Below are positions 13,763 through 15,638 of a stretch of 34,746 nucleotides of DNA, one piece after another. Both the position numbers and the translations under genes were made by a program. The stretch's first letter is position 1, and each line of letters starts with the position of its first letter. Below the pieces are notes generated by a model. The model made no database searches and was not told the origin of the DNA. It was given only the letters and a program-made list of their open reading frames with translations. The DNA comes from Bacillota bacterium (GTDB lineage: Bacteria > Bacillota > Clostridia > Peptostreptococcales > Anaerovoracaceae), in NCBI GenBank assembly GCA_021443825.1, contig JABUTE010000040.1, positions 1 through 34,746 of the forward strand, in the 5' to 3' direction.

Positions 13763-14071
13763 TTACAGCTTAATTTCGATATCCACACCTGCGGGCATGT
13801 CCAGCTTCATGAGAGTGTCCATGGTCTTTGCGGTCGGGTTGAGGATATCAATCAGTCTCTTGTGGGTCCTCTGTTCGAACTGTTCACGGCTGTCCTTGTA
13901 CTTGTGAACGGCTCTCAGGATGGTAACGACTTCCTTCTCGGTGGGGAGAGGGATGGGTCCGGAGACCTCAGCGCCGGTCTTCTTTGCAGCTTCTACGATC
14001 TTTGCTGCAGACTGGTCCAGAGCCTTGTGGTCGTAAGCCTTGAGTCTGATTCTGATTTTCTGACTACTCAT
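13763..14071 (-). CDS. rpsJ: 30S ribosomal protein S10
   Basis: Small-subunit head protein that in other bacteria also pairs with NusB in antitermination, 102 residues. It begins [20 protein letters not shown] at the ATG at 14069-14071, preceded by AAGGAG. The motif [16 protein letters not shown] and the C-terminal [14 protein letters not shown] are conserved. It is the first gene of the cluster; no str-operon genes (rpsL, rpsG, fusA, tuf) precede it here. Confidence 0.98.
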
Positions 14072-14397
14072 TTGATTTTTTTCTCCTTCTGTGTTTGCTT
14101 TGCGAAGCGGAATGCTTCGCGGTTTACACGCATTTTCGCTATATCTGCGTGAGGTTGTTCCATCGTGTTTTCGTTGGAACTTCAACGGTTTGTTGTCTTG
14201 CCCCTGCAACTCTTAGGGGTTCGGTACACGCTGCCGCGTGTTCCCTGCTTGATCGCTCAAGCGAAAATCACGAGAACGCCTTCGCCCATCTCAAGGATGG
14301 ACAGTTCTCCCCAGGAGTTCCCTGATAGCACAGCAACCTCCTGCGTCTTGGCTGGTAAGGGCGGATTCTTTGCGGAATTTCCCTTCCGTAAGCAAGC
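14072..14397 (-). promoter_or_regulatory. structured 5' leader of the S10 operon
   Basis: About 326 transcribed bases between the predicted promoter and rpsJ. On the transcribed strand I find a series of hairpins: 14370-14395 (GGAA/TTCC plus TTGC/GCAA), 14286-14300 (CCATC/GATGG), 14247-14262 (GCTTGA/TCAAGC closing a GCGA tetraloop), 14226-14241 (ACACGC/GCGTGT), 14201-14219 (CCCCT/AGGGG) and 14102-14120 (GCGAAGC/GCTTCGC). None has a T-run after it. S10 leaders are autoregulated by L4 in some bacteria; this one matches no consensus I can recall. Confidence 0.6.
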
Positions 14398-14403
14398 CTA
14401 ATC

Positions 14404-14432
14404 AATATACATCATGAAACATCGATATGCAA
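14404..14432 (-). promoter_or_regulatory. predicted promoter of the S10 operon
   Basis: Sigma-A-like promoter on the minus strand: -10 TATATT at 14404-14409, 17-base spacer, -35 TTGCAT at 14427-14432. The -10 is five of six; the -35 keeps only the TTG. The predicted transcription start is near 14397, which leaves the long leader described at 14072. Confidence 0.5.
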
Positions 14433-14834: not shown

Positions 14835-15638
14835 TCAGACGTAGCCGCAAAGGCCGCGCACCGACACCTCGCCGGTGCTGACATGCTGAACCTGGCCGTC
14901 TGCCATACGCACCACCAGACGAAAATCGTCATCGATGGCAAGGCCGTAGGCTTCCTCACAGGTGCCGCCGGCATAATGGAGCATCAGGGGGATGCCGACG
15001 GTGCAGCAGCGCTGCCGGTATTTCTGCAGGTACTCCTCTTTCTGCGCGGGAAAGACACTGTACAGCCGGTCCAGGTGCCTGGTCAGAGCAGCGGCCAGCG
15101 CGGTGCGGTCTACCTCATGGCCCAGGTGCATGGCAAGAGATGTGGCGATGGGGCGGATGGAAGGCTCCAGATCCTCTTCCCGGTGATTGACGTTGATGCC
15201 GATGCCGGGCACGATATAGCGGACCGTTCCCGTTTCTGCATCCACCTCCATCTCGGTGAGAATGCCGCACAGCTTTTTCCCGTCCAGAATGATGTCGTTG
15301 GTCCACTTGATCTGCGTGCTGACGCCGCAGGTCTCTTCGATGGCGTCGCAGACAGCCGCCGCGATCCAGGCCGTCAGGTTCACCGCCTCTTCGGGGCGAA
15401 GCTGCGGGCGAAGCAGGCACGAATAGTAAAGGCCCTTGCCCTTGGGCGAATGAAAGCTGCGCCCGTAGCGGCCTCTTCCTGCGGTCTGTTCTTCTGCGGT
15501 GATCACCAGGCCCTCCGGCTCTCCGGCCAGGGCGCGGCGCTTGCACTCGGTGTTGGTGGAATCGATGGTGTCAAGGCACTGGAAGCGGCGGCCGATCACC
15601 TGCGTATCCGAAAGGCGCTCTAAGGTATTGCTGTTCAT
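14835..15638 (-). CDS. birA: biotin--protein ligase, monofunctional (no DNA-binding domain)
   Basis: Activates biotin with ATP and attaches it to the lysine of biotin carboxyl carrier domains. The protein has 267 residues and is only the catalytic and C-terminal domains: the biotin-binding GRGRYGR loop, the catalytic KWTNDI motif, then a C-terminal SH3-like domain ending STGEVSVRGL. The N-terminal helix-turn-helix of bifunctional BirA repressors is absent, so it should not repress biotin genes. I start it at the ATG at 15636-15638 (MNSNTLERL), seven bases after AAAGGGAG; an ATG six codons earlier has no good site. It lies 54 bases after the PHP gene, with a hairpin between them. Confidence 0.93.
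   Translation of the reverse strand: MNSNTLERLSDTQVIGRRFQCLDTIDSTNTECKRRALAGEPEGLVITAEEQTAGRGRYGRSFHSPKGKGLYYSCLLRPQLRPEEAVNLTAWIAAAVCDAIEETCGVSTQIKWTNDIILDGKKLCGILTEMEVDAETGTVRYIVPGIGINVNHREEDLEPSIRPIATSLAMHLGHEVDRTALAAALTRHLDRLYSVFPAQKEEYLQKYRQRCCTVGIPLMLHYAGGTCEEAYGLAIDDDFRLVVRMADGQVQHVSTGEVSVRGLCGYV

Follow-up and report, generated by a model that had tools for sequence, protein, structure and literature searches.

The S10 operon leader and its transcript

The window, a 34,746 nt stretch of DNA from a member of the Anaerovoracaceae, carries on its minus strand an S10 operon in which rpsJ is followed, in the usual order, by the genes for L3, L4, L23, L2, S19 and L22 (Pfam). The upstream neighbour on the same strand, a biotin/lipoate ligase-like gene whose end lies at 14835, is followed by a terminator-like hairpin of its own (14776-14751), so that the S10 operon needs a separate promoter. 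The sigma-70-type promoter listed in Table 1 is also present in five genus mates, where it lies at -352 to -382. From its position, transcription is predicted to start near 14397, leaving about 326 untranslated bases ahead of rpsJ. This fits the leader length given in an earlier note on this DNA, which was made from the sequence of the window.

The leader has a predicted folding energy of -113.8 kcal/mol, compared with a mean of -91.5 kcal/mol for shuffled sequences (z = -4.7), and none of 100 shuffles folds as well. We conclude that the S10-operon leader is genuine. The 5′ end of the transcript, GCUUGCUU (14397-14390), can pair with AAAGCAAAC (14101-14093), which lies just before the ribosome-binding site. 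Both segments recur in most genus mates and could form a closing helix of the leader; no covariation is seen for this pairing because both arms hardly vary.

Table 1. Features upstream of and including rpsJ, by position in the window
Feature	Positions	Strand	Basis
Promoter: -35 TTGCAT (14432-14427), 17 nt spacer, -10 TATATT (14409-14404)	14404-14432	-	Sequence, sigma-70 type
S10-Clostridia r-leader core: P1 (about 14344-14311) and P2 (14302-14284)	14282-14357	-	RF03136 match
Helix A: GAGAAC (14309-14304) with GUUCUC (14277-14272); extends P2, excludes P3	14272-14309	-	Own-fold probability 0.97
P3 5′ arm, GGCGUUCUCGUGAUUUUCG	14262-14280	-	15 Watson-Crick pairs with 14173-14153; partner-swap z
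H3, ACACMCGG segment, ACACGCGGCAGCGUGU	14226-14241	-	Within P3-closed region; sequence conservation
P3 3′ arm, CGAAAACACGAUGGAACAACC, directly before P5	14153-14173	-	Pairing with 5′ arm; partner-swap z
P5 hairpin, nearly fixed loop GNAUAGCGAAAA	14127-14152	-	Pair covariation, partner-swap, covariance model
P6 extra hairpin, GCGAAGCAUUCCGCUUCGC, between P5 and ribosome-binding site	14102-14120	-	Conserved hairpin with differing sequence
rpsJ ribosome-binding site, AGAAGGAGA	14082-14090	-	Sequence; unpaired in MFE and P3-forced folds
rpsJ (S10), ATG at 14071	13763-14071	-	Pfam S10; first gene of the operon

A divergent member of the S10-Clostridia class

The Firmicutes S10 motif is reportedly the subject of a 2007 paper. 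A search at Rfam gathering thresholds gives no match anywhere in the window, and the earlier note had held that the structure matches no class known to its author. A sensitive Rfam scan, in contrast, aligns 14357-14282 with all positions (1-81) of the S10-Clostridia r-leader model RF03136, at 20 bits (E 0.04-0.2), a score below the curated cut-off of 35.1. The match sits at the expected place upstream of rpsJ, retains the conserved UUGCUG..CAGG..GGAG..GGCGA and is the only RF03136 match in the organism's whole genome at E ≤ 1. Genus mates align along the entire element. When the organism's own genome and its relatives are taken together, 79 of 99 genomes are matched, 34 of them above the cut-off, and these stronger matches occur both in family mates and in other families of the order.

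According to Eckert and Weinberg (2020; PMC7247131), there is no fundamental difference between the S10-Clostridia motif and the Firmicutes S10 leader established earlier. Given this identity and the full-length match, the window leader is, as judged by its sequence, a divergent RF03136 member that fails the score cut-off alone. It shares with the class its placement before rpsJ, the P1-P2 architecture, the conserved core and occurrence across the same order. It differs in its sub-threshold score and in carrying P3, H3, P5 and P6, which have no place in the 81-position model; that model ends 210 bases short of the rpsJ start codon.

Not every relative retains these elements, and P5 or the core is missing from some family members. 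In three family genomes (L078, L082 and L084), P5 is missing, no S10 core can be recognised near rpsJ, and a promoter-like site lies at a shorter distance from the gene. There the leader seems to have been lost or changed.

Compensatory change in the long-range helix P3

The leader was called structured in the earlier note, and rightly so, but P3, the element with the strongest evolutionary support, was missed there. P3 is also absent from the minimum free energy (MFE) fold of the window leader and from RNAalifold predictions on MAFFT alignments. The latter fail because the loops between the P3 arms vary greatly in length. We therefore used a partner-swap test, in which the duplex energy of arms from the same genome is compared with that of arms exchanged among genomes (20000 permutations). 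The comparison of leaders drew on rpsJ upstream regions from 80 genomes.

In the window, P3 joins GUUC-UCGUG-A-UUUUCG (within 14280-14262) to CGAAAA-CACGA-UG-GAAC (within 14173-14153). In relatives, one arm follows closely on P2 and the other comes shortly ahead of the last family-wide hairpin. Individual pairings can be recognised by eye, as with AGAC-U-AUUGAA paired to UUCAAU-GUCU. Within the family (43 genomes), same-genome arms reach -13.0 kcal/mol versus -10.0 when exchanged (z = -8.0, 0/20000). In the order's other families (25 genomes) the values are -12.0 and -7.5 kcal/mol (z = -7.6, 0/20000). The test carries a composition component: reversing one arm, which keeps composition, leaves z at -2.6 in the family and -1.4 in the order, a much weaker signal than that of the native arms. 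Reverse-complementing the same arm gives 0.7 and -1.3, respectively. At least four expected P3 pairs are found in 34 of the 43 family leaders and 20 of the 25 others. Compensatory change in these 68 leaders thus indicates that P3 is clearly kept folded across the order.

Many longer family leaders also carry, between H3 and the P3 3′ arm, an element that corresponds in the window to CGUUGAAGUUCCAACG (14187-14172), a stem with a UUGAAA-like loop.

A hairpin with a nearly fixed loop beside the ribosome-binding site

P3 directly abuts P5. Across the family, 89% of cells in the P5 stem are paired, and double changes occur at four of its six pairs, with 14 such cells compared with 3.2 in shuffles; the partner-swap z is -7.6. 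The stem thus varies in a compensatory manner in the Anaerovoracaceae, and the 12-base loop, GNAUAGCGAAAA, is almost invariant. A covariance model of P5 (R1) finds the element in 71 of 109 family genomes (52 of the 61 of good quality) and once in the organism's own genome. When applied to a sample of 291 genomes from the class, the model yields four family members, two weak places elsewhere and nothing more. A MAG named Emergencia (L150) carries the element, and NCBI taxonomy places Emergencia in the Anaerovoracaceae, Peptostreptococcales, which is thus evidently the family concerned. Order-level relatives have the same stem, UCGUACG/CGURCGA, separated by a few bases from the ribosome-binding site and closed by different loops. 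The nearly fixed loop is confined to the family.

Covariation analysis, proposed in the earlier note, has thus revealed compensatory change in both P3 and P5. Together with the RF03136 match, it upholds the view that this is a cis-regulatory leader of the S10 operon. The 3′ domain formed by P3 and P5 is well supported, lies outside the 81-position model and is apparently undescribed in the literature covered.

The local hairpins on which the earlier note had built its description are present in the MFE fold as reported, but for the most part they are not those with conserved support. The hairpin with a GCGA tetraloop (GCUUGA-GCGA-UCAAGC, 14262-14247) does form in the MFE structure, yet it is specific to the window sequence. 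As a candidate conserved part it was rejected, since the corresponding interval of relatives is no more stable than shuffles (mean z -0.2) and its partner-swap z of -2.6 is the same as that of a control. The last hairpin (P6) is real: other members of the genus and certain neighbouring genera have a hairpin there of quite different sequence, with compensatory changes, although it is absent elsewhere, including from most of the family. The alternative pairing suggested to compete with it, AATGC (14134-14130) with GCATT (14115-14111), was not found in genus mates, and the switch proposed on it was rejected as not conserved.

The ACACMCGG segment occupies two positions in S10 leaders

The ACACMCGG segment (H3) is nearly invariant across the order and is conserved in Bacilli as well; no covariation is detected for H3 (z 0.5). 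In 55 Bacilli leaders the segment lies inside P1, always 11 bases past the start of the matched P1 motif. In contrast, Clostridia leaders with a recognised P2 carry it after P2. These sets comprise loci L130-L203 (Bacilli) versus L032-L111 and Clostridia loci. Peptostreptococcus and Clostridioides difficile (L187, L191 and L194) have ACACACCCGG before rpsJ and no recognised P1-P2 core.

The Bacilli S10 leaders, represented by RF03136 matches in Bacillus and Halalkalibacter, resemble the window leader in their P1-P2 core and ACACACCCGG segment. They differ in that ACACACCCGG falls inside P1, 11 bases past the start of the P1 motif (e.g. AGGUUGC), in that the ribosome-binding site follows directly after P2, and in having neither P3 nor P5. 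Read from the order of conserved motifs, ACACMCGG is one module at two places of the same S10 leader, relocated between Bacilli and Clostridia. No description of this relocation was found in the literature covered, which takes in the main text of PMC7247131.

These observations admit a reading in which the leader is a two-part sensor. The 3′ domain (P3, H3 and P5) would be a recognition module separate from the core, its ACACMCGG part having moved between Bacilli and Clostridia. In the Anaerovoracaceae, the fixed P5 loop would be a newly gained binding site that might accommodate a second ribosomal protein. We regard this proposal as tentative and rather unlikely.

A proposed model for autoregulation of the S10 operon

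We consider it probable that the RNA is an autoregulatory leader, a lineage-elaborated form of the Firmicutes S10 r-leader (RF03136), through which a protein of the operon, most likely L4, represses translation. We infer the ligand, the direction of control and its translational level. The precedent for L4 is E. coli, where it controls the S10 operon (reviewed in PMC10931766). In the proposed mechanism, P1-P2 would be the known core, and P3 would close a 3′ domain that holds ACACMCGG and abuts P5, whose loop lies a short way upstream of the ribosome-binding site. Whenever the operon protein outnumbers free rRNA, it would bind the leader and stabilise its folded form. The unit of P3 and P5 beside the ribosome-binding site would then lessen 30S loading on rpsJ and hence on the operon.

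Several features bear on the level of control. A promoter and terminator scan of the window revealed no convincing terminator in the leader, which makes translation the likelier level. Furthermore, the leader contains no conserved short reading frame, and the UAG of the loop is spread over all three frames; the lack of a leader peptide and the nearness of P5 to the ribosome-binding site point to translation. The leader resembles the L4 leader of E. coli and other gamma-proteobacteria in being long and structured, in preceding the same operon and in ending beside the rpsJ ribosome-binding site. It differs in that no correspondence was found and no convincing counterpart of that leader's attenuator is seen here, a comparison drawn from the review and general knowledge rather than from an alignment.

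A resemblance in sequence to 23S rRNA was considered and rejected. P5 initially resembled the L4 region of domain I, but local sequence alignments of P5, H3 and P1-P2 to the 23S rRNA of relatives, among them a family member, were no better than shuffles.

Several observations run against the autoregulation model, among them the sub-threshold RF03136 score, the absence of resemblance to 23S rRNA in sequence and the family members that lack P5 or the core. The window's own sequence prefers helix A plus a local hairpin over P3 by about 6 kcal/mol, and neither of these folds pairs the ribosome-binding site, leaving the route of repression out of view. A competing helix around P2 exists in the window sequence, without covariation. 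Helix A could instead be one state of a bistable switch, in which it and P3 exclude each other and a protein selects one of them, altering access near the start codon. Both helices are strong in the window and have GUUCUC in common, the P3-forced fold lies 6.2 kcal/mol above the fold that favours helix A, and helix A reaches at least four expected pairs in three of six genus members, a fourth having 3.7. Outside the genus it is weak: in all, at least four pairs are expected in 5 of the 43 leaders from the family, genus included, and in none of the 25 others. Its 5′ arm is conserved even where the 3′ arm mismatches, and the ribosome-binding site is not masked in either state. A bistable switch is on this evidence improbable.

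The P3-P5 domain might also serve chiefly to set mRNA stability or processing, with the leader sensing no ribosomal protein. Hairpins near the start site can protect mRNA, and the S10-Clostridia class was predicted by comparison, with no ligand given in the literature examined. The nearly fixed 12-base P5 loop and the invariant ACACMCGG, however, suggest a specific binding partner, and we find this explanation about as improbable. Similarly improbable is transcription attenuation, with polymerase pausing or ending at a U-rich stretch after P2: L4 acts with NusA in this way in E. coli (PMC10931766) and U runs follow closely on the P2 region in many family leaders, but these runs vary among relatives, lack a consistent hairpin, partly double as a P3 arm and are often replaced by A runs in other families, and the window has only UUUUC with a scan stem of five pairs, within chance expectation.

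The covarying P3 and the nearly fixed loop adjoining the ribosome-binding site offer concrete parts to mutate. The Firmicutes S10 leader precedes a ribosomal-protein operon that is among the largest, and the move of ACACMCGG within this leader provides a natural test of which leader parts meet in space for protein binding.
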